From the NCBI GenBank assembly GCA_015654525.1, contig JAATGT010000311.1:1-37244 (forward strand): a stretch of DNA of 37,244 bases. Reading direction: 5' to 3'. Source of the stretch: Bacteroidales bacterium (GTDB taxonomy: Bacteria > Bacteroidota > Bacteroidia > Bacteroidales > Paludibacteraceae). The stretch's first letter is position 1. Every line of letters begins with the position of its first letter. The notes under the pieces were generated by a model that saw nothing but the letters and a program-made list of their open reading frames with translations, made no database searches and was not told the origin of the DNA. The translations under genes were made by a program, and so were the position numbers. Shown here piece after piece: positions 565-26,499 of the stretch.

Positions 565-1530
565 ATGAGTGAAAAGGAAAAAAAACCCAGAAAAAAATCA
601 AGAAGGGAGTTTTTACAGGATTTAGGGATTGTTGGCGTTGGCACTTTAATTGGTGGTTCTGCAATCTTTGCAGGCATAAATTATGATAAGAGAAAGAAGC
701 AAGCCGAAAGAGTTAAGGTCCTTACGGCAGAAAATGAACTTCTCGAAATAGAAAAAAGCGATACTACTAAAGTCATAAAATCGAAGCTGGAGAATCTTAC
801 CTATCTTCAGAAAGAGGGCCGGGATGGAATAGCGGGGCGTCGTTTTGTGATGGTTATAGATTTGTCCAAGTGCAGGAATGCCCGTAAATGCATGGCTGCC
901 TGTAATAATGCCCATCATCTTCGCCCGGAACAGCATCATATTAATGTATTGAAAATGCAGGAATCTCATGATACACCTGCTTATTATATGCCCAAGCCTT
1001 GTCAGCATTGCGACAATCCTCCTTGCGTTGCCGTTTGTCCTGTGGACGCTACTTTCAAACGCCAGGATGGAATTGTACTTATTGATAACGAAAGATGTAT
1101 CGGTTGCCGCTTTTGTATTGCTGCTTGCCCGTATAGTGCCCGTATTTTCAACTGGGCTGAACCAATAAAATCAGTAGAAGATGAGGATTTGACCTATAAT
1201 GTTGAATTGAATGTTCCTCAGCGTAAAGGAACCGTTAGCAAATGCCTGTTTAGTGCCGACAGGGTACGCGAGGGTAAATTGCCTTATTGTGTTTCAGCTT
1301 GTCCTAACGGTGTTTATTATTTTGGTGATGAAAATGAAGATACAGTAACTAACGGAACAACAAAAGAAACTGTCCGTTTTAAAAAGCTGCTTGAGGATAA
1401 TGGTGGTTATACATTGATGCCAGAGCTTGGCACACACCCGCGGGTTTATTATCTACCTCCGAAAGGTAAAGACTATCCGTTTCAGGATAAGGATAAACCG
1501 GAAGCTGCAGAGCATTTGGGAAACAGTTAA
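565..1530 (+). CDS. Tat-exported NrfC/PsrB-like 4Fe-4S protein, electron-transfer subunit of a quinol-oxidising complex
   Basis: A 321-aa protein. A twin-arginine signal (S12-R-R-E-F-L) and a hydrophobic stretch at about 20-38 indicate folded export or an N-terminal anchor, followed by a short charged helix. Four cysteine motifs of the NrfC/DmsB/PsrB family are visible. Motifs 2 (C146, C149, C154, C158) and 3 (C178, C181, C184, C188) are complete. Motif 1 has C103, C109 and C113 with Ala106 in place of the second Cys. Motif 4 has C227, C242 and C246 with Ser230 in place of the second Cys. The two clusters shared by motifs 1 and 4 should therefore lack a ligand and be 3Fe-4S or absent. Family members pass electrons between an NrfD-type membrane quinol subunit and a partner. 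The next gene is NrfD-like and the third a cytochrome c, so quinol-to-cytochrome transfer is the likely role. No molybdopterin subunit is present. Confidence 0.85.
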   Translation: MSEKEKKPRKKSRREFLQDLGIVGVGTLIGGSAIFAGINYDKRKKQAERVKVLTAENELLEIEKSDTTKVIKSKLENLTYLQKEGRDGIAGRRFVMVIDLSKCRNARKCMAACNNAHHLRPEQHHINVLKMQESHDTPAYYMPKPCQHCDNPPCVAVCPVDATFKRQDGIVLIDNERCIGCRFCIAACPYSARIFNWAEPIKSVEDEDLTYNVELNVPQRKGTVSKCLFSADRVREGKLPYCVSACPNGVYYFGDENEDTVTNGTTKETVRFKKLLEDNGGYTLMPELGTHPRVYYLPPKGKDYPFQDKDKPEAAEHLGNS

Positions 1531-1587
1531 TACCGATGGTTAAATTCAAACTTCTTCAAATTTGTAACTAAATACTTGTATCTATTT

Positions 1588-2904
1588 ATGTCAGATCAAT
1601 TAAAAACAGAAAAGATTACCACCGACTTGCTTCGGTCAATCAGGCTGAATAAAAGTTTCCTGATTTGGATGGGTTTTTTAGGACTTGCATTCCTGATATG
1701 TTTTGGTGCCTACGGTTTGCAGTTAAAAAACGGAATGGTTGTGACAGGTCTTGGCGATTATGTTTCTTGGGGAATGTATATTTCCAATTTCGTTTTTTTT
1801 GTAGCTACGAGTTTAATCGGAATGCTAATCAGTGCGGCACTTGGGCTCTCAGGGCAGAAATGGGCAGCACCATTGGCCAGAATTGCGGAAATCATAGCTC
1901 TGGCTTTTGCTGCTGTTGCTGGTTTGGTAATCGTGATGGACATGGGACGTCCCGAACGGCTTCTGAATGTAATTATTCATGGACGCATTCAGTCCCCTAT
2001 TGTATGGGATATGACAGTAGTGACAGTATATGTGCTGATTAGTACTTTGTTTCTGTATATTCCACTTATCCCCGATCTGAAAATTTGTTACGACAGACTG
2101 GATAAACTTCCTCCCTTTGCCCGTAATATTTATAAACTTCTATCACTCAACTGGACCGGATCACCCGCTCAGAAAAAACTAATTAAACAGTCAACCCGCG
2201 TTATTGCCATATTTATTATTCCGGTGGCACTGGCTATTCACACAGTTACTTCCTGGTTATTTGCCAATACGTCCAGAGTTGGTTGGGATTCTACGATATT
2301 TGGACCTTACTTTGTTACCGGTGCTTTTGTGGCTGGTAGTGCTGCTGTTATTATTGCCATGTACTTTTATCGCAAAAATTATGGTTTGAAGGATTATATT
2401 ACCGATTATCATTTTGATAAAATGGGACAATTATTGGTATTAGTATCCTTGATTTATTTATACTTTACATTGAATGAATACATGGTCCCAGCGTACAAAA
2501 TGAAAACGTCTGAGGCACTGCATTTATCTGCGTTATTCACGGGCATTCATGCGGGCTTATTTTGGTCGGTTCAGCTTTTTGGATTGGTTTTGCCGATTAT
2601 CTTGCTGCTATTTAAAAAGATGAGAAAGCCTTTACCTATGCTTTTTATAGCCTTAGCTGTACTTATTGGTGCATGGTTTAAACGATACATTATTGTTGTC
2701 CCAACTCAGGAACATCCTTATTTACCGATTCAGAACGTCCCTCTGAGTTTTAAAATTTATACCCCCACACTGGTTGAAACGCTGATTACTATTGCTCCAT
2801 TTATATTGGTTCTGATTATTATCACTGTCTTGTCGAAAGTGATTCCAATAATTTCGGTTCATGAAACCATAGAGCAACTGGAAGAAAACAATCAAAAAGA
2901 CTGA
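1588..2904 (+). CDS. nrfD: NrfD/PsrC/ActC-family integral membrane quinol-interacting subunit
   Basis: From the ATG at 1588 the product has 438 aa. An upstream in-frame TTG at 1576 is less likely as the start. I count about ten hydrophobic segments, which fits the longer HybB/ActC group rather than the eight-helix NrfD of about 320 aa. The family motif GRPERLLNV after the third helix and the DYVSWGMYISNFVFF segment in helix 2 are characteristic. In this family the helices carry a quinone site on the outer face of the membrane and pass electrons to the Fe-S partner, here encoded 57 bases upstream. The cytochrome c gene starts 2 bases after this stop, so the three genes are presumably translated together as one complex. 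The gene symbol reflects the family only. Confidence 0.85.
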   Translation: MSDQLKTEKITTDLLRSIRLNKSFLIWMGFLGLAFLICFGAYGLQLKNGMVVTGLGDYVSWGMYISNFVFFVATSLIGMLISAALGLSGQKWAAPLARIAEIIALAFAAVAGLVIVMDMGRPERLLNVIIHGRIQSPIVWDMTVVTVYVLISTLFLYIPLIPDLKICYDRLDKLPPFARNIYKLLSLNWTGSPAQKKLIKQSTRVIAIFIIPVALAIHTVTSWLFANTSRVGWDSTIFGPYFVTGAFVAGSAAVIIAMYFYRKNYGLKDYITDYHFDKMGQLLVLVSLIYLYFTLNEYMVPAYKMKTSEALHLSALFTGIHAGLFWSVQLFGLVLPIILLLFKKMRKPLPMLFIALAVLIGAWFKRYIIVVPTQEHPYLPIQNVPLSFKIYTPTLVETLITIAPFILVLIIITVLSKVIPIISVHETIEQLEENNQKD

Positions 2905-2906
2905 TT

Positions 2907-3815
2907 ATGCTGAAACGAATTATTGATTTGAGAGTTGCCTTGACTTTAGCAGTCACCATACTATATTGTGCAAATGATTTTGCTGCAAACAATTGGAATG
3001 TACCTGTCGATAAGAAAACGAAAAATAGTTATATCAAGTTTGATGCTGCATCGGCTAGTCAGGGAGAGGCAATCTATAATAAAAATTGTGCATCCTGTCA
3101 TGGTAACCCGGGTAAAGGAAATAGTTTGAAATCTTTAAGTCCTGTTCCGCCGGATTTATCTTCGGCCAAAACTCAGGAATTGACAGACGGTGAATTGTTT
3201 TATATACTATCTACAGGCAGGATGATCATGCCTTCGTTTAAAAATGTTTTATCAGAAGATGAACGGTGGAGGGTGATCTCATTTATACGAAGTTCCAACA
3301 AGAGTTATGTTCAGACTCTTTCTAAATTTGACCCGAACAAAAGTAAGTTAGTAAAGATCAATCTTAATTTTGATCCGGCAACACATAATATTCGTATTCT
3401 GGCTATTGCAAACGAGAAATCAGGGGTCGTAGCTTTGAAAGATGCTGAAGTAGCCTTGTTTGCTATCCGTTATTTTGGCCGGTTGCAAATAGGTAAATCA
3501 ACTAAGACAGATAAAGATGGCATGGCAAATTTCAAATTTTCCAAAGACTTACCTGGTGATAAGGCCGGGATTGTAGAATTAGTCGCGAAGGTCAATGATG
3601 AAAATTACGGTGAAATAGAGTCAGTCACTAAAATGAAAGTGGGTATTCCAACAGACAAACCAGCTTTGAATAAAGACAGAGCTATCTGGAATGTTTTAGC
3701 TAAAGCTCCCATTTGGATAATTGTTTTATACAGCTTTGGGGTTTTGGTGTTTGTATTGGTTCTACTATATCTCTTAAACAATTTGAGAAAACTAAAGAAA
3801 ACAGGTGATAACTAA
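2907..3815 (+). CDS. Membrane-anchored monoheme cytochrome c
   Basis: A 302-aa protein with an N-terminal hydrophobic segment (about 8-27), a class I cytochrome c domain (heme motif C61-A-S-C64-H65, probable axial Met108 in MIMPSF), a middle region of about 130 residues resembling an immunoglobulin-like or transthyretin-like beta domain (KTDKDGMANFKF), and a C-terminal membrane helix (about 266-289) followed by a basic tail. The ATG lies 2 bases after the NrfD-like stop. Position and architecture suggest it is the electron exit of the Fe-S/NrfD module, handing electrons to the cytochrome c domain of oxidase subunit II encoded downstream. The beta domain between heme and anchor is unusual for a small shuttle cytochrome and may be a docking arm. 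Heme binding is sure from the motif; the partner assignment is inference. Confidence 0.85.
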   Translation: MLKRIIDLRVALTLAVTILYCANDFAANNWNVPVDKKTKNSYIKFDAASASQGEAIYNKNCASCHGNPGKGNSLKSLSPVPPDLSSAKTQELTDGELFYILSTGRMIMPSFKNVLSEDERWRVISFIRSSNKSYVQTLSKFDPNKSKLVKINLNFDPATHNIRILAIANEKSGVVALKDAEVALFAIRYFGRLQIGKSTKTDKDGMANFKFSKDLPGDKAGIVELVAKVNDENYGEIESVTKMKVGIPTDKPALNKDRAIWNVLAKAPIWIIVLYSFGVLVFVLVLLYLLNNLRKLKKTGDN

Positions 3816-3827
3816 AAAATTAAAATC

Positions 3828-4220
3828 ATGAAAAAACTTGCAGTTCTTGGACGAATTTTATTCGCTTTACCTTTTGGAATAATGGGTTTAAATCATTTTC
3901 TTATGACTAATGTTTTTATAGGCATGATGTCTTCATTTATTCCCGGTGGGGCTTTCACTGTTTTATTAACAGGTGCTTTACTTATTGTAGGATGTATTAG
4001 CATTATACTAAATAAAAATATGAAGATAGCCTGCTTTGGGCTTGCGGCTTTATTGTGTATTTTCATTATCACTATTCATATTCCCGGTTTATGTACCCCA
4101 AATTGGCAAATAGCCTTGGTGGAGCTTCTTAAAGATACGGGATTAATGGGCGGTGCTATTATGATTGCCATTTCTTCAACTTTGCTAAAGGAAGAACCAA
4201 CGAAAAACGAATCAAAATGA
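3828..4220 (+). CDS. DoxX/MauE-like four-helix membrane protein
   Basis: A 130-aa protein with four hydrophobic segments (about 5-25, 42-60, 66-86, 101-120) and the start pattern of the DoxX family (GRILFALPFGIMGLNHF). DoxX-like proteins occur near terminal oxidases, thiosulfate:quinone oxidoreductases and redox-stress genes, but many have no assigned reaction. It lies 12 bases after the cytochrome gene and its stop overlaps the start of the SCO gene by 4 bases, so it belongs to the oxidase operon. A role in oxidase assembly or quinone chemistry is possible; none is shown by the sequence. The last 15 residues are hydrophilic. Confidence 0.6.
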   Translation: MKKLAVLGRILFALPFGIMGLNHFLMTNVFIGMMSSFIPGGAFTVLLTGALLIVGCISIILNKNMKIACFGLAALLCIFIITIHIPGLCTPNWQIALVELLKDTGLMGGAIMIAISSTLLKEEPTKNESK

Positions 4221-4987
4221 AAAAGAAGATTATTGTTGTATTAAGCATTGCCTTGACTTTTACAGGATTTGTATCTGCCCAGGTAGATCAGTCGCCTGAA
4301 GTTGGAGTTATAGAACACCTTGGTAAAACCATTCCGCTGGACTTGAAGTTTGTAAATGATAAGTTTGATACTGTCACGTTAAAACAATTGATAACCAAAC
4401 CGACTATTTTATCGTTTGTTTATTTTGATTGTCCGGGACTCTGTAGTCCCCTGCTTGAAGGTGTGGGTGATGTCATTCACAAAACTGATATGAAGCTGGG
4501 TAAAGATTATCAGGTGATAACGATTAGTTTTAATTACAGAGATACGCCTCAGAAGGCGAAAGAAAAGAAAAAACGTTTCATCGATAAATATTCAAAGGGT
4601 AATGGTGATGGTTGGATTTTTCTGACTACCGACAGTGCTACTATTTTTAAAATCACAAATGCCACAGGTTTTAAAACAAAAGCAGTCGGGTTGGATTTTG
4701 TACACCCTTCGGCCATTATAGCCATTAGTCCCAAAGGACAGATAACCCGCTATTTATATGGCATTACATTTATGCCTATAGATTTTAAAATGGCAATCAT
4801 TGAAGCGAATAAAGAGCAACCGCGACCAACGATACAAAAAATACTATTGCTGTGTTATAGTTACGATCAAACAAATCAACGATTTGCATTGGATGTAACA
4901 AAAATAGCAGGAATCATCATTGTATTCTTCTTACTGGTATTTATTATCGTGTTTCTGCTCAGACCAAAAAAGAAAAATAAAAATTAG
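4217..4987 (+). CDS. sco1: SCO1/SenC-family copper chaperone for cytochrome c oxidase
   Basis: A 256-aa protein with a cleavable-looking signal (cleavage after SAQ near residue 22), a thioredoxin-like fold with the copper site C72-P-G-L-C76 and H163 in DFVHP, and an additional C-terminal membrane helix (about 229-250) ending in a basic KKKNKN tail. Cys, Cys and His are the three copper ligands of SCO proteins, which deliver copper to the CuA centre of oxidase subunit II. Its position one gene before subunit I fits. Its start overlaps the DoxX-like gene in an ATGA, and only 6 bases separate it from the subunit I gene. The C-terminal anchor, rather than an N-terminal one, is a variant seen in Bacteroidota. 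Confidence 0.88.
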   Translation: MKKKIIVVLSIALTFTGFVSAQVDQSPEVGVIEHLGKTIPLDLKFVNDKFDTVTLKQLITKPTILSFVYFDCPGLCSPLLEGVGDVIHKTDMKLGKDYQVITISFNYRDTPQKAKEKKKRFIDKYSKGNGDGWIFLTTDSATIFKITNATGFKTKAVGLDFVHPSAIIAISPKGQITRYLYGITFMPIDFKMAIIEANKEQPRPTIQKILLLCYSYDQTNQRFALDVTKIAGIIIVFFLLVFIIVFLLRPKKKNKN

Positions 4988-4993
4988 AAGTAT

Positions 4994-6604
4994 ATGATTA
5001 CTGCAACAGAAAAAACAGAATATGTAAGCTACCTCGACCATAAAGGCAAATACAAGGGGATTTTTGCGTGGATTTTTGCCACCGATCATAAACGGATTGG
5101 GTTGCTTTATATGTATGCAATCATGTCATTCTTTTTTATCGGAGCATTTTTAGGACTGCTGATGAAGATTGAGTTGATAGCACCGGGGGAGACTATTATG
5201 AAGCCGCAGACTTATAACGGTGTTTTTACCCTTCATGGCATCCTGATGATTTTCATGGTGGTAATTCCCGGCTTGTCTGCTGTGTTTGGAAATTTCTTCC
5301 TGCCCATTTTAATTGGGGCAAAGGATGTGGCTTTCCCTAAACTAAACCGCTTTTCATGGTGGATCTTCATCGCCGGAAGTATCATGGCTATTGCTTCGCA
5401 ACTGCTAAAAGACGGACCTCCCGATACGGGTTGGACATTTTATGCACCTTATAGTACAACAACGGGTACAAATGTAATCATGGCAACTGCTGCAGCTTTT
5501 GTGTTGGGTTTTTCATCCATCCTCACCGGTTTAAATTTTATAGTAACTATTCATCAGATGCGGGCACCGGGGATGAAGTTTTTTAATATGCCTTTATTTC
5601 CCTGGGCATTGTACGCAACAGCCTGGATACAATTACTTGCTACGCCTATAGTAGGTATTACACTTCTGATGTTGATAGCTTAACGCTTATTTGGGATCGG
5701 CTTTTTTGATCCTAATCTGGGGGGTGATCCACTGCTGTTTCAGCATTTATTCTGGATTTATTCGCATCCGGCTGTGTACGTTATGATTCTTCCTGCTATG
5801 GGTGTGATTACTGAAATAATCCCGACTTTTTGTCAACGGCAGATATACGGTTATAAAGCAGTGGCTATATCCAGTCTTGCTATTGCCGGAGTCGGCTTTT
5901 TGGTTTGGGGACATCACATGTATACCTCTGGAATGAGCGAACAAGCCCGGTGGTTTTTCTCACTGCTTACTTTTATAGTTGCGGTGCCTAGTGCCATCAA
6001 AGTATTTAACTGGATATCGACTATGTACAGAGGGTCGATAGATGTAAAACCTCCCTTTCTTTATGCAATTTCGTTTATCTTCCTTTTTATTATTGGCGGA
6101 ACCACGGGACTGTTGCTTGGTTCGGTAGCCACCAATGTGCAGGTGCATGATACTTCGTTTGTGGTAGCGCATTTCCATTATATCATTTTTGGAGGCATGG
6201 GCTTTGCATTCTTTGCTGCAATTCATTATTGGTTACCCAAAATGTACGGTAGAATGTATAATTTCAAGATAGCTTATATAGCATGGGGAATTAATTTTGT
6301 TGGTTTTAATTTATTGTATTTTCCACAATTTATTATTGGAGTCGAAGGTATGCCAAGAAGATATTTTGATTATCCGCCACAGTTTCAACCGATGCAAATT
6401 GTTTCTTCCATTGGAGGTTTCATCTTAATCTCAGGATTAATCCTGATGGTTTATAATTTGGTACAGGGTGTGCGAAAAGGAGCACCGGCACCGGCTAATC
6501 CGTGGCATGGCTCTACACTGGAGTGGCAAATACCATCTCCACCATCGTTGGAAAACTTTGATGAAGAGCCTGAAATAAAAAAGAATCCGTACGATTATAA
6601 GTAA
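4994..6604 (+). pseudogene. coxA: caa3-type cytochrome c oxidase subunit I, interrupted by one in-frame TAA
   Basis: The frame codes for a complete 536-codon heme-copper oxidase subunit I except for a TAA at 5681-5683 (codon 230). The reading frame resumes immediately, giving ...GITLLMLIA-stop-RLFGIGFFDPNLGGDP, where relatives usually carry Glu at the stop position (GAA to TAA is a single change). Heme and CuB ligands are present: His in FTLHGILM, H258 in YSHPAVY, the His pair in WGHHMY and the two His of VVAHFHY. The YSHPxVY motif in place of GHPEVY marks the A2-type group, which lacks the D-channel Glu and uses Tyr-Ser instead. A GTG at 5774 could restart the distal part but would give a useless fragment. 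The gene stands in the middle of an otherwise intact oxidase operon, so a sequencing error or a very recent mutation is likely. Confidence 0.88.
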
Positions 6605-6789
6605 AGAATCTCAAGGCTTAAAGGATAGTGATGTCGGTTCGACTTTAGTTTTTTTTGGTCTCGGGAATTTGAGGCTTTACCAGAACGATTTGAAAAATAG
6701 ATAGAAATAATAGCTCTCCGTTGAATTTATTTTCAGGAGACATAACTAACACGATCTCCTTTAAGGGATAGGTGTCAATTGAAAATTAT

Positions 6790-7407
6790 ATGAGTGAAAT
6801 GATAACACACGTTGAGGAGCATAGAGACGATGAAGCCTCTAAACTGGGAATGTGGCTCTTTATTTTTACAGAACTATTATTGTTCGGAGGATTATTTTTG
6901 GTATACTCTATTTTCAGAGCAGAATATCCGCTGGCTTTTCACGAAAGTAGCCTGGAACTCAGTGTTACTATTGGTGCAATTAATACCATTGTCCTTCTGT
7001 TTAGTAGTATGACCATTGCTATGGCACTGACAGCTATTCAAAAAAATGATCAAAAACGGGCTTTGATTTTTATAGGAATAACATTATTTTGTGCAGCGAT
7101 TTTTCTTGTAAACAAATATTTTGAGTGGGGTCATAAGTTTGAAATGAAGTTGTATCCGGGCTCGCCTTTGATGCCGCTTTTGGGTAGAGGATATTTGCTT
7201 TATTTCAGTCTCTACTTTTTTATGACCGGACTGCATGCCTTACATATAATTATTGGAATGACTCTTTTGGTTGTTTGTTATTTTAAGGTGAAAAGTAAGA
7301 ATATAAATAGTAAAGATTATGTACTACTCGAAAATGGCGCTCTTTATTGGCACTTAGTGGACTTAATCTGGATTTTCCTTTTCCCGCTGATGTATTTAAT
7401 TTCCTGA
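6790..7407 (+). CDS. coxC: Cytochrome c oxidase subunit III (heme-copper oxidase subunit III)
   Basis: From the ATG at 6790 the product has 205 aa; a GTG at 6772 would add six residues and sits just after AAGGGA, so it cannot be excluded. Five hydrophobic segments and the subunit III signatures are visible: LGMWLFIFTELLLFGGLFLVYSIFR at the start, MTGLHALHIIIGM in the third quarter and ALYWHLVDLIWIFLFPLMYL at the end (His and Trp of WHFVDxVW). Subunit III stabilises the oxidase core in the membrane and does not bind metals. The 185-base gap after subunit I is longer than elsewhere in the operon and holds a short AGGAGA/TCTCCT inverted repeat (about 6736-6759) of unknown meaning. Confidence 0.9.
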   Translation: MSEMITHVEEHRDDEASKLGMWLFIFTELLLFGGLFLVYSIFRAEYPLAFHESSLELSVTIGAINTIVLLFSSMTIAMALTAIQKNDQKRALIFIGITLFCAAIFLVNKYFEWGHKFEMKLYPGSPLMPLLGRGYLLYFSLYFFMTGLHALHIIIGMTLLVVCYFKVKSKNINSKDYVLLENGALYWHLVDLIWIFLFPLMYLIS

Positions 7408-7463
7408 AAGGGGATACTCTATGAAAGACAATCGAAATTAAAGTATTTTTTTATTGATTTATT

Positions 7464-7748
7464 ATGGCAAATAATACTACACATACTACCGAATACAGAG
7501 TGCTGGCAAAAATCTTGTTGGTACTTATGTTTCTTACCTTTCTGACTATTAGTATAACTTCCTTTCATTTGGGGGCATTTACAGTTACGGTAGCCTTATT
7601 GATTGCCGGGGTGAAGGGCTTTCTTGTGTTATCTTATTTTATGCATTTGAAATATGAGAGTCTGTTACTTCGCATTCTGGTGGGTATGGTTTTCGTGCTC
7701 TTTATTGTAATTGTGCTTATTACATTTATTGATTATGCATATCGATAG
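7464..7748 (+). CDS. caa3/cbb-type oxidase subunit IV (small prokaryotic COX4-like protein)
   Basis: A 94-aa protein with three hydrophobic segments and the pattern of the prokaryotic subunit IV family: a short polar start, TEYRVLAKILLVLMFLTFLTI, then ALLIAGVKGFLVLSYFMHLKYE (the K-F-MHL motif is diagnostic) and a final helix. It lies between subunits III and II, the usual place in caa3 operons. The small subunit is believed to help assembly and CuB binding; it has no catalytic residues. Confidence 0.85.
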   Translation: MANNTTHTTEYRVLAKILLVLMFLTFLTISITSFHLGAFTVTVALLIAGVKGFLVLSYFMHLKYESLLLRILVGMVFVLFIVIVLITFIDYAYR

Positions 7749-7801
7749 ATGTTTCTTTTGTATTTCATTTAAAATTGTAACTTGTAACTAATAACTAGAT
7801 T

Positions 7802-8716
7802 ATGTTCAGTAACGCATCAAATTTTGTTCAGGGAGTTGATTCGGCATTTTTTATCATTACGGGAATATCCGTATTCTTTCTTGTAACTCTTACGGCTACT
7901 ATGATTTTTTTTGTTGTGAAATACAATAAGAAAAAAGGCAAACCGGCAATTCAGATTAAAGATAATTCGCTGCTCGAAATCACATGGATCACTATTCCTA
8001 TGATTCTGGTTCTTTATATGTTTTATATCGGTTGGCAAGGATTCTTACCAATGCGTCAGGCTCCCAAAGATGCTATGCAAGTGAAAGCCATCGGCTCCAT
8101 GTGGAAGTGGACATTTGAATATGCCGGAAATAAACAATCTTATACCTTAGTATTACCAATCAATAAACCAGTAAAAGTAAATCTTGTGTCAACTGATGTA
8201 TTACATGGTTTCTTTATACCTGCATTTAGGATTAAGGAAGATGTGGTGCCTAAAAAGCACAATTACTCATGGTTTATACCGGGTCAACTTGGTGATTTTG
8301 ATTTGTTTTGTACCGTGTATTGTGGCGTAAGTCACTCGTATATGTCGGCAATTGTCCGAATTGTAAATCAGCAGGACTACGACAAATGGATAGCTGCACT
8401 GCCGGTAAAAAAGGCTAACACTAATTCAGGTCATGCGGTTTTGGAGAAAAATGGTTGCATCGCCTGTCACTCTCTTGATGGCTCAAAATCTGTTGGTCCG
8501 ACTTTTAAAGGACTGTCGGGCTCAAAGGTTGATGTTACTACCAATGGAGCACCCCGAAAGGTTACTGCTGATGATGCTTATATTAAGACATCTATTCATG
8601 AACCAAACAAGGATGTGGTGGTCGGGTATCCACAAGGACTGATGAAATCATACAAAGGATTGATAACAGATAAGGATATCGAACAAATAAATGAATATCT
8701 GAAAACATTGAAATAA
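7802..8716 (+). CDS. coxB: caa3-type cytochrome c oxidase subunit II with fused cytochrome c domain
   Basis: A 304-aa protein: two membrane helices (about 15-39, 60-79), a cupredoxin domain with the CuA ligands H135, C170, C174, H178 and M181, the aromatic patch SMWKWTFEY that receives electrons, and a C-terminal cytochrome c domain (heme motif C219-I-A-C222-H223, likely axial Met281 in GYPQGLM). The usual Glu between the CuA cysteines (CxEYC) is Val172 here (CTVYC); its ligand is a backbone carbonyl, so function may survive. The fused cytochrome makes this a caa3 enzyme, able to take electrons directly from the membrane cytochrome encoded upstream. The stop codon overlaps the next ATG by one base (TAATG). 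Subunit order I-III-IV-II differs from the common II-I-III order. Confidence 0.93.
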   Translation: MFSNASNFVQGVDSAFFIITGISVFFLVTLTATMIFFVVKYNKKKGKPAIQIKDNSLLEITWITIPMILVLYMFYIGWQGFLPMRQAPKDAMQVKAIGSMWKWTFEYAGNKQSYTLVLPINKPVKVNLVSTDVLHGFFIPAFRIKEDVVPKKHNYSWFIPGQLGDFDLFCTVYCGVSHSYMSAIVRIVNQQDYDKWIAALPVKKANTNSGHAVLEKNGCIACHSLDGSKSVGPTFKGLSGSKVDVTTNGAPRKVTADDAYIKTSIHEPNKDVVVGYPQGLMKSYKGLITDKDIEQINEYLKTLK

Positions 8717-9582
8717 TGAAAAACTACCTGCAACTGGTTTCGGCCTTAATAAAATACAAGGTTTCCATAGCTGTAACTTTTACAGCTATTACCGGTTACG
8801 TTGTCTATGCGGGTCACTTTAATTTAGAAACTCTGTATTTAGTGCTTGGTGTCTTTTTTCTTGCCGGAGGTTCCAGTGCATTAAATGAATGTCAGGAAAG
8901 TGAATACGATGCCAGAATGGAGCGAACAAAGAACCGTCCCATTCCGACAGGGCAGATCTCCCCAAAAAATGCATGGCTGGTTGCTTCAGCTTTTGTTATT
9001 GTAGGGTTGTTGATTTTATATATTGCTTTTGGTGCGGTGACTGCTTTACTTGGTGTAGTAAATCTGGTGTGGTATAATCTTATTTACACATACTTGAAGC
9101 GTATTACTCCTTTTGCTGTTGTTCCTGGGTCGTTGGTTGGAGCTATTCCTGCACTGATGGGTTGGACAGCAGCCGGTGGTTATGTGTTCGAAACAACAAT
9201 TATTTTTATTGCGTTCTTTCTGTTTACATGGCAAATACCTCATTTTTGGTTACTGATGATTAAATATGGCAAGCAATACGAAGAAGCCGGTTTTAAGACT
9301 ATAAATCAGGCAGTAAATCCGGGCAATTTAAAAATGATCATTTTTGCCTGGGTAGTAGCCACTTCATTTTCTTCCATTATTGTACCTTTATTTCTGGTTA
9401 ATATCTCATTACCCTTCTTCCTGATTATTTTTGCCTTGAATTTATCGTTCATAGCTATTTTCACTAAACTCTCGTTTGGTGATGTAGCAGAGTTAAACTT
9501 CAGGAAATCATTTATCAGCATTAATATTTATATGATGCTTTTTATGTTGATGCTTATTATCTTCCATATAGTTGCTTCATGA
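8716..9582 (+). CDS. ctaB: Protoheme IX farnesyltransferase (heme O synthase)
   Basis: A 288-aa UbiA-family membrane prenyltransferase with about eight helices. The first substrate motif is N57-x3-E61-x3-D65 followed by ARMERTKNRPIPTG, so the usual middle Asp is Glu; the second motif region is YLKRITPFAVVPGSLVGAIPALMGW. The enzyme joins farnesyl diphosphate to heme B, making heme O for the oxidase. It overlaps coxB by one base and is the last gene of the oxidase operon. No heme A synthase gene (ctaA) is in the window, so the oxidase either uses heme O or depends on a ctaA elsewhere. A hairpin without a T-run follows at 9614-9642. Confidence 0.92.
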   Translation: MKNYLQLVSALIKYKVSIAVTFTAITGYVVYAGHFNLETLYLVLGVFFLAGGSSALNECQESEYDARMERTKNRPIPTGQISPKNAWLVASAFVIVGLLILYIAFGAVTALLGVVNLVWYNLIYTYLKRITPFAVVPGSLVGAIPALMGWTAAGGYVFETTIIFIAFFLFTWQIPHFWLLMIKYGKQYEEAGFKTINQAVNPGNLKMIIFAWVVATSFSSIIVPLFLVNISLPFFLIIFALNLSFIAIFTKLSFGDVAELNFRKSFISINIYMMLFMLMLIIFHIVAS

Positions 9583-9759: not shown

Positions 9760-10098
9760 ATGTCTCAATTTATAAAACGTAAAGTTCATGCATTTGTAGC
9801 ACTGCTTTTTTCGGCGGTACTACTGGGTTCCCTGCTCGTAAAGCCGGTGCATATTTTATTGGTTAGCCACGACCGGGCAGAGACATTAAAAGTTCAATCG
9901 GATTTTGGTGTTATTACCAATATACACCACGATTGTTCAGTATGTAATTTTGAGTTTTGTTCTTTTATTCCTCAAGCGCAGGTTCATGTTCCAAAGGCTG
10001 ACGTAAGCTTTGCACGCGAAATGACTCCGCGAATCGTTGATGGAATAATTAAACAAAGTGCACACCATTTCCTGTTACGGGGTCCTCCTGTACTTTAA
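9760..10098 (+). CDS. Small exported His/Cys protein, DUF2946-like, probable metal-handling partner of the TonB receptor
   Basis: A 112-aa protein with a basic start, one hydrophobic signal segment (about 10-30), a cluster of metal-type residues in the middle (HHDCSVCNFEFC) and a C-terminus LRGPPVL. Short proteins with a His-rich/CxxC centre and an ending like (R)GPP are typical of the DUF2946 group in proteobacteria, often found just before copper TonB receptors, and Bacteroidota have analogues in the same place. I infer periplasmic binding or delivery of copper (or zinc). The direct family match is not certain. It begins a new transcription unit after the oxidase operon and precedes the TonB receptor by 393 bases. 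Confidence 0.5.
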   Translation: MSQFIKRKVHAFVALLFSAVLLGSLLVKPVHILLVSHDRAETLKVQSDFGVITNIHHDCSVCNFEFCSFIPQAQVHVPKADVSFAREMTPRIVDGIIKQSAHHFLLRGPPVL

Positions 10099-10491
10099 AC
10101 TTTCTCTTTTTTATTGATTGCATTGTTATTTTCTGTTTCATTGTGCAGACAACTCAACAGTTGTTTGCGACTGAGCATTTCGAACTAACATAGAGATTGT
10201 GCCTGCGGAATAAATCGTTTCTTGCCGGGCAGTATCTGTAGCATTCATTATTACAACTACATTTTACAAACATCTAAAAACAGATTCAGTTATTCTGTAA
10301 TCCCAAGTCAGATTTATGGTTAAGACTCTTTTTTGAAAGAAAAAGAGTTCTGGCGGTAAGCTCTTGCTTTCCGATACTTCTTAGTCAATATAGTTTATAT
10401 TTAACTGTACAGATGCAATGGTTGACGGAAGTTGGCTGATTTCAGGTTTAGAGAATAGATGTGCTGAATAAATTCAAAAAAGAAAACAGGA
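10099..10491. other. Intergenic region before the TonB receptor
   Basis: No coding potential is evident. The only clear structure is a 9-bp inverted repeat at 10325-10348 (ACTCTTTTT / AAAAAGAGT, 6-nt loop), without a T-run on the + side. I looked for a cobalamin riboswitch, common before TonB receptors, and did not find its conserved boxes. A consensus TAnnTTTG element was not seen. Confidence 0.3.
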
Positions 10492-12912
10492 ATGAAAAAG
10501 ATATTTATATTACTTCTCTTATTTGTCGTGACATTCAATGTGGCGGCAGAAGTCATGGCAGGTTCGCAAACGAGCTTGCAAGGCAAAGTTACCGACAAGA
10601 ACGGAGAGCCTGTAATTGGTGCCAATATTTACTTGCCGGAACTGAAAACCGGAGCATCTACCGATGCACAGGGCTTTTATCAAATAGATAACTTACCCAA
10701 ACACAGACTATCTGTTCAAATTAATTCGGTGGGTTACAAAATGATTTCGGAAGTTATTGATTTGTCTTCGACGACGCATAAAGATTATGTATTGAAGGAG
10801 TCGGTTACTGAAATTGCTGAAGTGACTGTAACGGGACAGGCTATTACTTCACAAATAAGCAAAACGCCAACGCCTGTGAGTATAGTTACCTTAACTGAAC
10901 TGCAGCAACATCCATCTACCAATATTATCGATGCGTTGAGTTCTCAGCCCGGTGTGTCGCAAATAACAACCGGAGGAGGTATTTCAAAACCGGTTATCCG
11001 TGGATTGGGTTATAATCGTGTAGTAGTTGTGAATGACGGAGTGCGTCAGGAAGGGCAACAATGGGGTGACGAGCATGGTATTGAGATAGATGAAAATCAG
11101 GTGAACCGGGCCGAAATATTGAAAGGACCGGCCAGTTTATTATATGGCTCCGATGCTATGGCAGGAGTGATCAGCTTTTTCTCGGCACCCATATTGCCCC
11201 AGGGCAAAGTGCAGCTGAATGCCAGTGTAAATTATCAGACCAACAATGGGCTGATGGCTTACTCGCTGGACTACGCTGGACACAAAAAGACCTTTGTATG
11301 GGATTTGCGCTATAGCGGCAAAGAGGCGCATGCTTATCAGAATAAGTATGACGGATATGTATACGGTTCCGGCTTTAAGGAAAATGCAGCTTCGGCTTTA
11401 GTGGGGATAAGTAACTGGTGGGGATATTCACACCTGACTCTTAGCATGTATCATCTGACTCCGGGCATTGTGGAAGGTAGCAGGGATAGTCTTTCGGGCA
11501 AGTTCACGAAAGATATCGTACTCCCTGATGGTACGGTCGGTACTGCTATAGCAACGCATAATGATCTTACTTCGTATAGCCATCAGATGCCTTATCAGCA
11601 GGTTTATCATTACAAGGCTGTGTGGAATAACAATATTCTACTGGGCGATGGAAGTCTGAAAGCGAGTCTTGGCTATCAGCAAAATCGCAGACAGGAATTT
11701 GCCGATGTGCTCACCCCCAATAATTATGGCTTGTACTTTCAGCTTCATACCGTAAATTATGATGTGCATTACCAATCGGCCGAGCGGAATGGCTACAGTT
11801 TTTCGTTTGGAGTAAGCGGTATGGGCCAACGCTCGTTGAACAAAGGAACCGAGTTTCTGGTGCCGGAGTATGGGTTGTTTGATATCGGAGCATTTGTAGT
11901 GGCTAAGAAAACAATAGGCAAGTTGGATATCAGCGGCGGACTCCGTTTTGACAATCGGTCTGAAACCGGTAAGTCTCTTTATCTGGATGCGAACGATGCT
12001 AAAACCACTGCATCCGATCCCACTGCTAGACAGCGCTTCTTTGCTTTTTCGAAAGACTTCAATGGTGTAAGCGGAAGTATAGGAGCCAGCCTACAACTAA
12101 ACGACAACTGGGTTACCAAGTTAAATATCTCTCAAGGATTCAGGGCTCCGAGTATTGGCGAGCTGGCTTCGAATGGGGTGCACGACGGAACGGTACGTTA
12201 TGAAATAGGAAATTCAAACTTAAAGTCGGAACATAGCTTGCAGCTTGATTACGAGCTGGGTTATAATACCGAGCATGTGACGGCTAAGGTCAATCTGTTT
12301 GTTAATAATATCAGAAACTATATTTATTCACATAAAATCAATAGTGTGAATGGTGGAGACTCTATTCGAAGTGGATATTCTACTTACAAATTTGATTCGG
12401 GCAATGCATTGCTTTTTGGTGGTGAGGCATATCTGGATATTCATCCACATCCATTGGATTGGTTACATTTCGAAAATAGTTTTTCGTATGTCTATTCCGA
12501 GCTGAAGAATCAATCCGATTCTACCCGCTATTTGCCCTTTACGCCTGCTCCCAAATGGACTTCGGACATCAGGGTCGACCTGAATCATACCATTAAATCG
12601 TTGAAAAATACTTATGTGTCGTTTGGTTTGGAGCATGACTTTAAGCAAACTCATGTTTATTCGGCTTACAATACCGAAACTCCGACAGATGCATATACAC
12701 TGTTGAATGCTGGTATCGGTACAGACGTGGTTTGGAATAAACGTACCTTGTGTACGATTTATATAAGTGGTACAAATCTGGCTGATGTGGCTTATCAAAG
12801 TCACCTGAGCCGATTGAAATATGAAGCGGAGAATTATGCTACGGGTAGGGTAGGGGTTTATAATATGGGACGAAATATTAGCTTTAAGCTGATTGTTCCT
12901 GTTAATCTGTAG
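10492..12912 (+). CDS. TonB-dependent outer membrane receptor, metal-type (copper/zinc group)
   Basis: An 806-aa protein: signal peptide (about 1-23), a carboxypeptidase-regulatory-like beta domain (about 30-105; GKVTDKNGEPVIGANIYL), the plug (about 110-235) and the 22-strand barrel to the C-terminus. In the plug, PVIRGLGYNRVVVVNDGVRQEGQQWGDEHGIEID and the following ILKGPASLLYGSDAMAGVI closely recall the ZnuD/OprC-like metal receptors rather than SusC sugar importers or siderophore receptors. There is no SusD-like gene beside it. The neighbouring DUF2946-like gene and caa3 operon make copper the favoured substrate, but the sequence cannot tell copper from zinc. A terminator follows the stop by 35 bases. 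Confidence 0.85.
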   Translation: MKKIFILLLLFVVTFNVAAEVMAGSQTSLQGKVTDKNGEPVIGANIYLPELKTGASTDAQGFYQIDNLPKHRLSVQINSVGYKMISEVIDLSSTTHKDYVLKESVTEIAEVTVTGQAITSQISKTPTPVSIVTLTELQQHPSTNIIDALSSQPGVSQITTGGGISKPVIRGLGYNRVVVVNDGVRQEGQQWGDEHGIEIDENQVNRAEILKGPASLLYGSDAMAGVISFFSAPILPQGKVQLNASVNYQTNNGLMAYSLDYAGHKKTFVWDLRYSGKEAHAYQNKYDGYVYGSGFKENAASALVGISNWWGYSHLTLSMYHLTPGIVEGSRDSLSGKFTKDIVLPDGTVGTAIATHNDLTSYSHQMPYQQVYHYKAVWNNNILLGDGSLKASLGYQQNRRQEFADVLTPNNYGLYFQLHTVNYDVHYQSAERNGYSFSFGVSGMGQRSLNKGTEFLVPEYGLFDIGAFVVAKKTIGKLDISGGLRFDNRSETGKSLYLDANDAKTTASDPTARQRFFAFSKDFNGVSGSIGASLQLNDNWVTKLNISQGFRAPSIGELASNGVHDGTVRYEIGNSNLKSEHSLQLDYELGYNTEHVTAKVNLFVNNIRNYIYSHKINSVNGGDSIRSGYSTYKFDSGNALLFGGEAYLDIHPHPLDWLHFENSFSYVYSELKNQSDSTRYLPFTPAPKWTSDIRVDLNHTIKSLKNTYVSFGLEHDFKQTHVYSAYNTETPTDAYTLLNAGIGTDVVWNKRTLCTIYISGTNLADVAYQSHLSRLKYEAENYATGRVGVYNMGRNISFKLIVPVNL

Positions 12913-14876: not shown

Positions 14877-15590
14877 ATGTATCAGATTTATAAGATTTAT
14901 ATTAAACCGTCCATGCAGGTGCTGGATCTGATTAATGAAAATCCGTCGTTATTGTTATTGATGGAATATTTTGAAATAGATTATGCTGTTAATAATATGA
15001 CTGTCGAAGAGATTTGCCGGATAAACAGAATAGACCAGAATGTATTCTTAATCTTCAGTAATCTGTATAATGGCTTTTATCCGAATATGGAAGAATTAAT
15101 GTCTGCCAATTTAGATATTTTACTTGTTATCAAATTTCTAAAGAACAGTCACAATTATTATAAAAACGATAAGTATCCAGAGATTAAACAATATATTAAT
15201 CAGTTATACAATCATCAGAATTCAAGCGATGTGAAACGAATAGAGGTATTCTTTAATGATTACTTTAGTGAGGTTTTAGAACATCTTGACTATGAGGATA
15301 AAATAGCTTTTCCATATTTTAAGCAGCTCTTTGAACTTAATATAGATATTGAAAAATGTGTTTTCTCTTCGAAAGAATACAAGGTTCATCATACTGATAT
15401 AGAAACTAAATTATCCGATTTGAAGAACCTGTTGCTAAAGCATATTTCTTTAAATAAGGATTATATTCTTAGACGAAAACTTCTTTCGGCTTTGTTTGAA
15501 CTTGAACGAAATTTAAATATTCACTCTATCATTGAAGAGGTTATTTTACTTCCGTTGATTGAAGAAATTGAAAATAAATTAAAGAGATGA
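14877..15590 (+). CDS. Hemerythrin-like (HHE) domain protein with ScdA/RIC-type N-terminus
   Basis: A 237-aa protein. Residues 10-65 resemble the N-terminal region of ScdA/YtfE-type proteins (VLDLINENPSLLLLMEYFEIDY...MTVEEICRI), though without that region's conserved Cys. The rest is a helical HHE domain with the spaced ligands H92, H136 and E140 (HLDYEDKIAFP), H171/H172 and H216 with E220/E221 (HSIIEEVILLP), suited to a non-heme di-iron site. RIC proteins repair iron-sulfur clusters after NO or oxidant damage; other HHE proteins sense O2 or NO. Because the stop overlaps the start of a LuxR-type regulator (ATGA), a sensor role is attractive. Confidence 0.75.
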   Translation: MYQIYKIYIKPSMQVLDLINENPSLLLLMEYFEIDYAVNNMTVEEICRINRIDQNVFLIFSNLYNGFYPNMEELMSANLDILLVIKFLKNSHNYYKNDKYPEIKQYINQLYNHQNSSDVKRIEVFFNDYFSEVLEHLDYEDKIAFPYFKQLFELNIDIEKCVFSSKEYKVHHTDIETKLSDLKNLLLKHISLNKDYILRRKLLSALFELERNLNIHSIIEEVILLPLIEEIENKLKR

Positions 15591-16180
15591 GTAAATGCAG
15601 GGTTAATATTGCCGTTATTGAACCTTCTCAGATTATTTATGAGGGATTCTCCAATATGTTGTTGAAATCGACAGAGCATTATTGCCTGTACAGATTATCG
15701 GAACTGGCAGAACTGACAAATAGTTTAACGCTGAAGTTTAGCATTGTGATATTGAATCCGGCCATTATTCAAAACAAGATCAATTCTTTTTTAAAGATAA
15801 AAAAGAATTTTCCCGACACTGTGTGGATAGGTCTGGTCTACTCTTTTTATGATAGTGAGCTGTTGATGAGACTCGATGATGCAATTTCTATAACTGATTC
15901 TGCGGAACAAATAATACAACGTATTAATAACCTCCATAGTAAGTATAATTGTGAAGCTAATCACAATAAAGATCTGACCGATCGGGAAGTTGAAGTGTTG
16001 ATTCATCTGACCAGAGGATTGTCCAGCAAAGAGATTGCCGATAAGCTGAATATTAGTGTTCACACAGTAGTTAGTCATCGTAAAAATCTGGTAGAAAAGA
16101 CAGGAATAAAAAGCCTGCCGGGTTTGACACTCTATGCCATATCAAAGAACTTCATAAAACTTGAAGATCATCTTACTTAA
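15587..16180 (+). CDS. LuxR-family response-regulator-like transcription factor with degenerate receiver
   Basis: A 197-aa protein. The C-terminal third (about 128-190; LTDREVEVLIHLTRGLSSKEIADKLNISVHTVVSHRKNL) is a clear LuxR/NarL helix-turn-helix. The first about 115 residues have the alternation of a receiver domain, but the segment where the phosphorylated Asp should be reads FSIVILNPAI, with Asn57 at the expected place. Phosphorylation by a histidine kinase is thus unlikely, and no kinase gene is nearby. It overlaps the hemerythrin-like gene by 4 bases, suggesting that the di-iron protein supplies the signal. Targets are unknown; the oxidase and cytochrome genes nearby are candidates. Confidence 0.85.
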   Translation: MSKCRVNIAVIEPSQIIYEGFSNMLLKSTEHYCLYRLSELAELTNSLTLKFSIVILNPAIIQNKINSFLKIKKNFPDTVWIGLVYSFYDSELLMRLDDAISITDSAEQIIQRINNLHSKYNCEANHNKDLTDREVEVLIHLTRGLSSKEIADKLNISVHTVVSHRKNLVEKTGIKSLPGLTLYAISKNFIKLEDHLT

Positions 16181-16569: not shown

Positions 16570-18937
16570 TTAAACACATATTTTTTTGTATTCCCGGTAC
16601 GAGAAGATAATGAGAAAAAGAAGTATTAGCACGGATAAAACAACAGCGATCCATGTACCGGTTAAGTCCATTTCGCCCGCATAGCTGTGCATCCCTCCCA
16701 ATATATAATTGACCCCAAAATAAGTCATAAGTACCGTGTAAAAAGCAAGCAGACCAAAGACGTGAAACCAGAAACGATGGCCTATACAGCTGATATGCCG
16801 GTGTAGCGGCAGAGCATAAAGCATAAAGGTAATAAGTGCCCATACTTCCTTGGGATCCCATCCCCAGTATCGGCCCCACGACACATTGGCCCATACAGCT
16901 CCGATAAATATGCCGGCGCCAAGCAGTAATATAGCTGGGTACAAACACAACAAACTGAATATCCGGTTACGCTCCAGCATAAGTACTGCCTGTGGGTAGG
17001 TTTCGCGACGGGCTGGTAACAGCAGGATGAGTGTCATCAGGCTGTTGAGTGCTACGAAAGCCAGTAAAGTATAGGGCCAGCATAATGACTGAAACATGTA
17101 TGCTTAGCAGTGGCGATGACAATACGGGCGTCAGTGGGGTAATCTTGGGATTGGATATGCCAAGATGTGCTACAAGCAGTGCGAAACCGGAGAGCAAAAA
17201 GCTAAAGGCCATAATAAGTGAGAACTTGCGCCGGAGAAACAGGCCACCCAACATGGCACACCAGGCTATCGTCAGCATGGTTTCAGCCCCGTTGGTGAGT
17301 GGCAAGTGTCCGGCAATCCAGACTCTGAGGGCTATGGATAGCGTATGAGTGAACAAGCTGCACAGGAGTAGATAAAATAGGATACGTTCCATGAGAGGTC
17401 GTTTTGATCCTATGGGGAGGAGTGCGATTAACAACGCTATGATACCGAGTGTAAGATTGATCTTGAATAATAAGGAACTGAATCCGGCTTTGAGGTACAA
17501 AATCTCCATGTTGCGCTTTTGAGCAGATGGTAGTACCACGTCGGCCTGATTGTGCTGAAAGTCGGCGATACGGTTAAGTACGCCGCTTGCCTGCTGTTCA
17601 TTGTTGGCCAATAAAGCAAGATAATAGGATGTGAGCGCAGCGCGCACAAAGCTACTGTCGGTAGCGGTTGTGTTGCGTGGAAGTGCTTGGATCGGTTGCA
17701 CCCACTGTACTGTAGCGGCAGATGTTTTCAACGGAAAGAGTTGCATCAGCACTCCGCTGTGAAGCATGTTGATGAGTTGTATCTTGTCATTTAGTTTTTC
17801 TACTTCTTTCTGTTGAGGCGATTTGACAGTCATTGTTCCCATACCGCTACGGTAGTTCAGGAGCTTATACCTTCCCGTCTGATCGAAGAAATCGGAGATA
17901 GCCGCCTTTCCTTCGGGCGAATTCAGATCGTGCATTAAAGCAGGATCATTCACTTCGAATAAAGCCACCCGCTGCCACCGGTCGGGAAAAAATAGAAGTC
18001 CCATAAGGAATTGTTCGGCAGTGAGGTATCCAAACCGAGGCTTGCCGGTAAGCTTGAGGCTAAAGTCCCGCGCAAAAACCGAAATGGATGTGATGCGCCC
18101 TTCGTATAACATGTATAGCTTCCCGAACTGATCAGCTTGCGAACTGTTCACCGACAGGCTGTCTTTGGTTCTGAGCTGAGCATTTGTACTGATTGGTATC
18201 ATCAATAAAAGCAGACAAATGCCGGCGGCTTTAAACAAGGGGTGCCGTAACAGTTGGCGGAATGCGTTATGGGGCGAAAGCAGATACCAAATCATGGTTA
18301 ATACAAATAGGGCATAGCCGGAATAGGTGAGCGGAATTCCCCATTGATCTCTGTTTACCGTCAGTACACTTGTTTTTCCACCCTCGCTGTACGACAATTG
18401 GTAAAAACGATAGCCGTCGTAAGAGCATATCTTGTTCATAGAAACCTGATATATGCTGGTTTGACCTATCGTATTTGTAATTCTGAAATGCGTTACGTAA
18501 TCCGCCGGAGCGTCAGTTCCGGGATAAAACTCTACATAAAAGGTATCCAGTTGCAACGAAAAGGGTAGTTGCTGAAGTTGTTCGTCGGTTTTTAGAATGC
18601 TTGTCGGGGCGGTTGTTTGTAAAACCACATAGCCTTGCTGCGAGAATAAGCGGGTGCATAGTGCACCTGCCAGAATAACCACAAATGAGAGGTGAACCAA
18701 AAAGAGAGACGGATTTCGGTATATCTTACCTATAATCATGCCAATACAAACCAGTACTACCAGCAATGTCCAGAGTGTTGTAAACCAACATGTTCCATAA
18801 ATATTGTCGTAAACATATCCGCTTCCGTGATTTTTTTCTAAAAGCGTCGCGCAGCCCATCAACAGCATAAGCACTATCAGGATGTAAAATGCGAGCGATT
18901 TCGTTAGTTTTTCAAACACTATCTTAGCTTGTTTCAT
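16570..18937 (-). pseudogene. ccsBA: Cytochrome c maturation protein CcsBA (fused ResB-CcsA), split by a 1-nt frameshift
   Basis: Starting at 18937, one frame runs through an N-terminal ResB part with several membrane helices and a large periplasmic loop, then the first helices of the CcsA part (HLPLTNGAETMLTIAW, a heme-ligand His region) up to SIHVSVIMLA. It then leaves the family pattern at about 17075. The next frame (visible from 17097 to 16570) continues exactly with YTLLAFVALNSLM, the heme motif WGRYWGWDPKEVW and the final GVNYILGGMHSYAG helix. One extra base in the run of three G at 17074-17076 (GCCC for GCC on the coding strand) explains the break; joined, the protein would have about 788 aa, normal for Bacteroidota CcsBA. 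CcsBA exports heme and attaches it to CxxCH motifs, needed by all cytochromes of this window. It is the last gene of the - strand train, 3 bases after the Rid-family gene. Confidence 0.87.
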
Positions 18938-20906: not shown

Positions 20907-20990
20907 TTGTTTTGTTTCCTAAATTTAGTTAGGTGGCATAACCCCCTTTTTTTGAGGGATGTTGTTTGCAACTCTTTATTTGTGCTAGAA

Positions 20991-22208: not shown

Positions 22209-22305
22209 ATATCTTGTAAATTAATTAAGTAATCAATAATATGTTTTTTGTTGGTCATATTCAGATAAACGGTCTTGTAACTCGGAACTATTTACTTATA
22301 ACCTA

Positions 22306-23733: not shown

Positions 23734-23818
23734 GTTTTTATTAGTTTAACGTAAGTCTCGATCTGAGAAGTAATAAGAATACCATAGCATTTGCTAAATT
23801 ACTTTTGAAATCGATTTT

Positions 23819-24955: not shown

Positions 24956-25003
24956 ATTTCTAATTATTAAGTGACTTGTTATAATTAATGATATTTAGTT
25001 TGC

Positions 25004-25179
25004 TAGTTGACAAGTAGACAAGTTAACTTGTCTACTTCTAACCAGTTTATTCATTTACTCGTAATTTTATAAAAAACATATTCCGGTGCTCTGCACCTAT
25101 TGTTTGTCGGTGTTATTTGGCACCTACAAATATTTTGGTGCTCTGCACCATGCTGGTTTACTGGTCTACTTGTCAACTA
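25004..25179. repeat. 176-bp element with terminal inverted repeats and internal hairpins
   Basis: The ends are exact 15-bp inverted repeats (TAGTTGACAAGTAGA at 25004-25018, complement at 25165-25179). The left end overlaps a perfect 26-bp palindrome (25012-25037, centre GTTAAC). Inside are two identical hairpins GGTGCTCTGCACC at 25085-25097 and 25137-25149, 52 bases apart, and a third weaker GGTG/CACC hairpin at 25109-25124. It has no coding capacity and lies in the gap between the porin and imelysin genes. It looks like a non-autonomous palindromic element. Confidence 0.65.
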
Positions 25180-25188
25180 TTCTGAAAT

Positions 25189-26475: not shown

Positions 26476-26499
26476 GATGTATAAATTGTTTAACCGATG

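Follow-up and report, generated by a model that had tools for sequence, protein, structure and literature searches.

How a member of the Bacteroidales might pass electrons from its quinone pool to a cytochrome c oxidase, when the markers used detect neither a cytochrome bc1 complex nor a canonical alternative complex III (ACIII) in its genome, is the question raised by contig JAATGT010000311.1 of assembly GCA_015654525.1 (Paludibacteraceae), a stretch of 37,244 nucleotides analysed as a whole and referred to here as the window. Designated contig C31, the window belongs to a 4.16 Mb genome in 361 contigs that is 89% complete (G000; G numbers are handles for genomes, L numbers for loci). A one-strand gene run at 565-9582 encodes in order an Fe-S protein, an NrfD-family membrane protein, a monoheme cytochrome c, a small membrane protein, SCO, the oxidase subunits coxI, coxIII, coxIV and coxII, the last carrying heme c, and a heme O synthase-like protein. 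The first three, here termed the trio, probably constitute a compact quinol:cytochrome c oxidoreductase standing in for complex III, as judged from sequence comparison. The best reading is of a conserved and portable module, ACIII-like in its proposed work, which by the tests made is not a member of ACIII and which is not specific to caa3-type oxidases. The gene content of the trio, its conservation and its co-occurrence with oxidase genes are described as observed.

The trio and its proposed electron route

Motifs, a PF03916 match and a hydropathy count bear out what the initial annotation had recognised at the head of the run: an Fe-S protein of the twin-arginine translocation (Tat) type, a 10-helix NrfD protein and a membrane monoheme cytochrome c. 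Compared with solved structures, NrfD matches four ActC sequences over nearly the full length (5.6e-48 for 6f0k_C to 6.3e-43) and ActF weakly (0.51), and ten hydrophobic segments are found in it by a simple hydropathy count. The protein keeps the equivalents of ActC Ser164, Asp169 and the gate residue Arg395, with His139 replaced by Asp, as in DsrP, and Asp253 by Leu; the roles of these quinol-site and gate residues in ActC are taken from PMC8076601. Identity amounts to 30% with ActC (two relatives) and 25-27% with DsrP (four dsrMKJOP loci), the DsrP model being matched with 125.2 bits, below its cut-off of 350. Assignment to the QrcD-type NrfD of the quinone reductase complex (Qrc) was rejected at 48.1 bits against a cut-off of 570. 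A plasmid search with the NrfD query returned 35 records, every one below 60% identity, and viral contigs held one relative of the Fe-S protein, at 32% identity.

The Fe-S protein, of 321 amino acids, consists of ferredoxin domains only and has no molybdenum (Mo)-like domain, nor does a gene for one lie adjacent. Its nearest solved structure is the PsrB/NrfC-type chain 2vpw_B and its best family model is DsrO, at 185.9 bits and thus below the cut-off of 200. The twin-arginine pattern at its start was matched in 23 of 26 relatives; among the exceptions L059 has the motif by eye, L053 has one Arg and the frame of L051 is truncated. The cysteine groups read CACC, CCCC, CCCC and CSCC in the aligned Bacteroidales rows, except for L042 (CECC first), and the fourth group is complete in two Flavobacteriaceae rows. 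Across 56 Bacteroidota rows, two of which (L039, L067) look like narH products about 5.5 kb from NrfD, position 2 is Ala in 51 for group I, and Ser in 48 and Cys in 8 for group IV. ActB (6f0k) has its altered cysteine in group III, and the DsrO rows of four dsrMKJOP loci, unlike the trio, miss most of group I in the alignment. By the pairing of cysteine groups with clusters known for this fold family, the two complete groups and the two without the second cysteine suggest two [4Fe-4S] and two [3Fe-4S] clusters. In the cytochrome c, Met108 is invariant across 14 aligned rows; in Flavobacteriaceae loci the cytochrome is encoded apart from the C-terminal domain, by a gene of its own.

From homology and context we infer a mechanism, including the direction of electron flow, the physical complex and any proton pumping. 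Menaquinol would be oxidised at the periplasmic side of NrfD, as homology to ActC and PsrC and the conserved residues suggest, and the electrons would move on via the Fe-S clusters of the Tat-exported protein to the membrane-tethered cytochrome c with its single heme. From there they would enter the cytochrome domain, and then CuA, of caa3 subunit II. The module is portable, lying in relatives also beside cbb3 oxidase, periplasmic nitrate reductase (Nap) or a narG-type gene.

The oxidase is of the caa3 type, with subunits I-IV, CuA and heme c on subunit II all present (Table 1), and the one heme-synthesis gene recognised in the operon is that of the UbiA-family heme O synthase-like protein. 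That the trio, SCO and a full caa3 set form one train, as had been claimed, holds for gene order and families, though not for subunit I as one open frame. The genes starting from 565 to 4994 are separated by 57, 2, 12, -4 and 6 bases, an alternative TTG start of the NrfD gene is possible upstream at 1576, and the gene for the small membrane protein is an addition to the earlier gene list.

Table 1. Features of the gene run in the window.
Feature	Position	Strand	Remarks
Tat-type Fe-S protein	565..1530	+	RR motif; four cysteine groups CACC / CCCC / CCCC / CSCC; 14 ligand-type Cys
NrfD-family membrane protein, ActC/DsrP-like	1588..2904	+	PF03916 2.3e-34; 10 hydrophobic segments; putative menaquinol site D118, S136, D141; gate R366
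Membrane-anchored monoheme cytochrome c	2907..3815	+	one CASCH; C-terminal domain; C-terminal hydrophobic segment
Small membrane protein, DoxX-like at best (E 0.19)	3828..4220	+	found in many related loci, not all
SCO1/SenC family protein, copper chaperone by family	4217..4987	+	
coxI, oxygen reductase subunit I	4994..6604	+	in-frame TAA 5681-5683
coxIII	6772..7407	+	
coxIV	7464..7748	+	caa3 subunit IV model, 68.8 bits, cut-off 37.25
coxII	7802..8716	+	CuA-type Cys/His/Met motif (by eye); C-terminal cytochrome c domain, CIACH; CoxB model 155.7, cut-off 147.7
UbiA-family protein, like the heme O synthase CyoE in sequence and gene position	8716..9582	+	

Co-occurrence with oxidases and other neighbours

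Among 150 genomes of the family, trio-type NrfD occurs in six, the window's genome included, and COX1-superfamily genes in 15. The caa3-type COX1 is found in the same six genomes as NrfD, so that NrfD accompanies 6/6 caa3-type and 0/9 other COX1-superfamily genomes; in each of the five relatives a single contig carries NrfD and COX1 in the same orientation, and NrfD has the Fe-S and cytochrome genes next to it. The other nine comprise six genomes whose proteins carry a NorB cytochrome-c-like domain and resemble nitric oxide (NO) reductase (G061, G136, G140, G033, G104, G121), one with a bo3-like quinol oxidase subunit I and a NorB-like protein (G119), and two with divergent COX1-superfamily forms (G024, G043). 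Quinol-fed enzymes of the NO-reductase-like and bo3-like kinds need no complex III. Classification of the weaker family COX1 matches as cbb3 was rejected, the Pfam NorB cytochrome-c-like domain being found in 6/9 other genomes and in second copies in G119 and G144. Within the genus, NrfD and COX1 overlap in the same 5 of 12 other genomes, for which chance would give 1 in 792, a value that is a guide only, given shared descent and operon linkage. Three same-genus genomes that lack the trio (L131, L132, L133) encode a NorB-like protein to which a cytochrome-c-like domain is fused and, nearby, two proteins with four CXXCH motifs each; in L131 these two are of the NrfA and NapC/NirT types by Pfam.

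When GTDB species genomes were scanned with the window's NrfD, 66 loci emerged, of which 59 belong to Bacteroidota and 7 are distant; the scan used peptide patterns of that protein and thus favours close relatives. The closest are Paludibacter-type Bacteroidales, and some names of metagenome-assembled genomes (Bacteroides fragilis, Porphyromonas cangingivalis) appear to be misnomers and carry no weight here. The same arrangement recurs elsewhere: caa3 genes follow downstream on the same strand in 27 of the 59 Bacteroidota loci (25 with caa3 only, 2 with cbb3 and caa3), 47 of the 59 extending 3.8 kb or more downstream from the start of NrfD, and the arrangement is thus more than chance. The view of the module as directly coupled to caa3 proved too narrow. 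On the same strand, cbb3 is present in 3 further loci (2 with divergent caa3, 1 without), a Nap context is seen in 2 and a Nar/NarK context in 4, with the full trio only in L058 (narG); 4 loci have the Flavobacteriaceae form, 4 have no visible partner (L010, L049, L050, L054), and in 9 the contig ends less than 3.8 kb downstream with nothing else seen. In example loci, NapA, NapG and NapH scored above the cut-offs of their family models and NapB was identified by Pfam; a fused CcoNO, a NarG-like protein cut by the contig end and, from its N-terminal Pfam domain, a CcoP were confirmed as well. Flags of a missing Fe-S gene reflect contig ends in L016 and L022 and an artefact in L059, where the gene lies directly upstream.

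In a tree of 69 NrfD rows the contexts cluster, eight labels needing 8 changes against a shuffle average of 29.6. This tree left out the short rows L066 and L067 and the near-identical rows L024, L054, L004 and L005; 10 of its 69 rows are unlabelled for context, the root serves the drawing alone, and long branches lead to ActC and to the outgroup. In named Flavobacteriaceae the module has a split cytochrome gene and no oxidase gene was seen beside it, and these genomes also have ActD. This form of the module is preceded by a hexaheme cytochrome in L062, L063 and L064 (also L121 and L122), L062 having a DUF5777 outer-membrane barrel in addition, and the Fe-S/NrfD pair stands twice in a row in L121 and L059. 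In L010, SCO is followed by a 453-amino-acid frame and then the contig end, a similar insert lying before coxI in two same-genus genomes. There, two extra CXXCH proteins lie between SCO and coxI (L128:6540-8330 and L129:8181-9971, both on the minus strand), a cytochrome c of 133 amino acids and a protein of 451-452 amino acids with no Pfam match in L128; both are absent from the window and from L127.

Other features of the window lie downstream of the gene run. A 112-amino-acid protein with a Cys/His-rich stretch (no Pfam match) and then a TonB-dependent receptor are encoded at 9760-12912, with similar genes in the same place at L127:11441-14396; perhaps they serve metal uptake for the oxidase. 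At 14877-16180, a hemerythrin-domain protein adjoins a regulator-like protein with, by eye, a LuxR-like DNA-binding end. For the minus strand at 20187-26529, Pfam assigns one product to the imelysin type and another to the di-heme oxidoreductases (DHOR); a protein containing CXXCH and two outer-membrane-like proteins were recognised there by eye.

Comparison with known complex III types

A bc1 or Act locus in the same genome would have counted against this reading, and none was detected with the markers used: neither ActD (PF11821) nor cytochrome b (PF00033) has a match in the 89% complete G000, and no multi-CXXCH protein was found in the operon, the ActA profile not having been applied to the rest of the genome. 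Of 14 control genomes, 8 were positive in the cytochrome b search. A single PF03916 match was obtained genome-wide in G000, though an ActF could be missed, being far from ActC. In relatives the expected absence holds in part. The Paludibacter-type caa3 group has ActD in 0/21 handles (at most 19 distinct genomes, because two handles repeat) and cytochrome b in 0/19 genomes, and some other genomes with this NrfD type have one or the other: among 46 genomes with trio-type NrfD, a count that took in 40 of the 59 loci, 11 have an ActD match above the cut-off, and cytochrome b matches occur in 4 of 31, three of them over cut-off. Since ActD was found in 254 of the 345 genomes of a phylum sample, its absence is a minority state. 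In that sample eight genomes have a trio-type NrfD above 600 bits, the next match reaching 398 and the others 277 and below. Around the seven of these NrfDs that lie outside the window's genome, Fe-S, NrfD and small cytochrome genes were matched, mostly with a split membrane-domain gene.

With ACIII (ActABCDEF; Rhodothermus marinus and Flavobacterium johnsoniae) the trio shares an ActC-like NrfD, Fe-S clusters, a monoheme cytochrome c, a place upstream of a caa3-type oxidase and, as proposed for the trio, a quinol:cytochrome c oxidoreductase function. It differs in that its operon encodes no multiheme ActA and its Fe-S protein has no Mo-like domain of the ActB kind, in that neither ActD nor a second PF03916 match was found in the genome, in the Asp at the place of the quinol-site His139, and in its altered cysteines, which are in groups I and IV and not, as in ActB, in group III. 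Deletion of actA in F. johnsoniae abolishes cytochrome aa3 activity, for which ActE is dispensable (PMC8552683), and this makes a module without ActA notable. Cytochrome bc1/b6f shares with the trio the proposed overall reaction, and membership of bc1 was rejected, no cytochrome b having been found in G000.

The DsrO-DsrP pair of DsrMKJOP and a dsrOhPh-tetrahaem locus from cable bacteria likewise combine an Fe-S protein, NrfD and cytochrome c without a Mo subunit, the latter locus having already been called a candidate alternative complex III (PMC13047784). The cable-bacteria cytochrome is tetraheme where that of the trio is monoheme, its NrfD clusters with DsrP and not with ActC, and section 11 of PMC13047784 names no oxidase operon beside it. 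Membership of DsrMKJOP was rejected for the trio, since the DsrO and DsrP models stay below their cut-offs and the neighbours are SCO and oxidase genes and not DsrMKJ; the cysteine pattern also differs from that of DsrO in the four dsrMKJOP loci. Mo-free NrfCD-type quinol:electron acceptor reductases have been described in Melioribacter (PMC3534657) and MBNT15 (PMC9386147), and as in the trio an Fe-S/NrfD pair is proposed to export quinol electrons to periplasmic cytochromes. Their partners, in contrast, are multiheme cytochromes discussed for Fe(III) reduction, and in Melioribacter the oxidase genes cluster with those of a canonical ACIII (PMC3534657). The trio is new as a variant, Mo-free modules with multiheme partners being already in print. 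Open-licence titles and abstract starts, a scope that leaves aside subscription work including the Refojo ACIII surveys, contained no description of a trio with a monoheme cytochrome that accompanies caa3, cbb3 or Nap in members of the Bacteroidales.

Alternative readings and biological meaning

Several observations weigh against the trio as a substitute for complex III. The window's genome is incomplete, its coxI is interrupted and it holds a bd oxidase, as two fragments; the Paludibacter propionicigenes type strain WB4T is recorded as strictly anaerobic and oxidase-negative (PMC3072083). The co-occurrence with caa3 in the family is partly trivial because of operon linkage, and the six family genomes with the trio belong to one genus. 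Elsewhere, ActD is present in 2 of 26 caa3-only handles (the genomes of L034 and L036) and in the cbb3/divergent-caa3 genomes L055 and L057, and cytochrome b in the genomes of L036, L041 and L042. All seven non-window genomes of the phylum sample with this NrfD type also have ActD, which speaks against a general rule of replacement and lowers confidence slightly, and no oxidase gene was matched in the 14-17 kb around these NrfDs. Modules unlinked to oxidases, a finding that the initial annotation had named as unfavourable, do exist among the relatives. The Nap locus L042 has its own NapGH; in L039, L061 and L067 a trio-type NrfD follows NarK-like genes (L039 and L067 have a NarG match as well) and lacks an adjacent Fe-S or cytochrome partner; and in 6 of the 59 loci (L038, L040, L044, L046, L047, L056) NrfD is divergent from a YdiJ/GlcD-like flavin adenine dinucleotide (FAD)/Fe-S dehydrogenase of 975-984 amino acids where read, with no Fe-S gene beside NrfD and a cytochrome c in five of the six, L056 being cut by the contig end.

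These points can be read in several ways. The trio might be a general exporter of quinol electrons to the periplasm with caa3 as one client, the oxidase serving O2 scavenging and not growth, as the Nap, narG and cbb3 neighbours, the Flavobacteriaceae versions after a hexaheme cytochrome, the anaerobic record of the type species and the bd oxidase would allow; its coincidence with caa3-type oxidase in the sampled family and its conserved place upstream of SCO and coxI speak against this reading, a serious possibility that we consider the less probable account. That the aerobic branch is decaying in this strain is unlikely. The in-frame TAA splits the 536-codon coxI frame into 229 and 306 codons, with a COX1 profile match (1-436) spanning it, and a ResB/CcsA-type cytochrome c assembly gene (16570-18937, minus strand) is split over two reading frames, but both lesions may be errors of the 361-contig assembly, and a sense codon stands at the TAA position in 32/32 other loci aligned at more than 55% identity (33 including the window itself), near-duplicate loci among them. 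The whole train is intact in a complete same-genus chromosome (G001, one contig, 3,685,504 bases; locus L127), where Fe-S protein, NrfD, cytochrome, CoxI and CoxII have 321, 435, 304, 536 and 304 residues.

NrfD-containing complexes work in both directions, and the six loci with a YdiJ-like dehydrogenase gene, for which a link of the dehydrogenase to quinone or cytochrome c is possible, could point to a module running in reverse, from a periplasmic donor to the quinone pool. This is improbable given that the main contexts, terminal oxidases and nitrate reductases, are electron sinks and so favour quinol oxidation. A DsrOP-type or Psr/Ttr/Nrf-type module for sulfur or nitrogen oxyanions that merely lies beside an oxidase would account for DsrO and DsrP being the best NCBIfam matches and for the nitrate reductase neighbours of some relatives; with both scores below cut-off, no catalytic Mo or multiheme subunit in the operon, DsrO without most of cysteine group I and NrfD nearer to ActC than to DsrP, no orthology with a reductase for sulfur or nitrogen compounds is apparent and the idea is very hard to sustain.

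If the trio is indeed a quinol:cytochrome c oxidoreductase, it would be a complex III much smaller than those described and a minimal model for how NrfD links the oxidation of quinol to the transfer of electrons, and perhaps also to the pumping of protons, when neither the heme wire of ActA nor a Mo-like domain is present. A bolder proposal, offered tentatively, is that it represents a third kind of complex III, a three-subunit Bacteroidales enzyme free of Mo and multiheme subunits, one that may translocate protons via NrfD, has two [3Fe-4S] clusters where electrons leave it and serves several terminal oxidases and nitrate reductases, and that under certain conditions cultured 'strict anaerobes', Paludibacter propionicigenes among them, use it for O2 respiration. 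The finding could explain how a Bacteroidales lineage regarded as anaerobic feeds a cytochrome c oxidase without bc1 or canonical ACIII.

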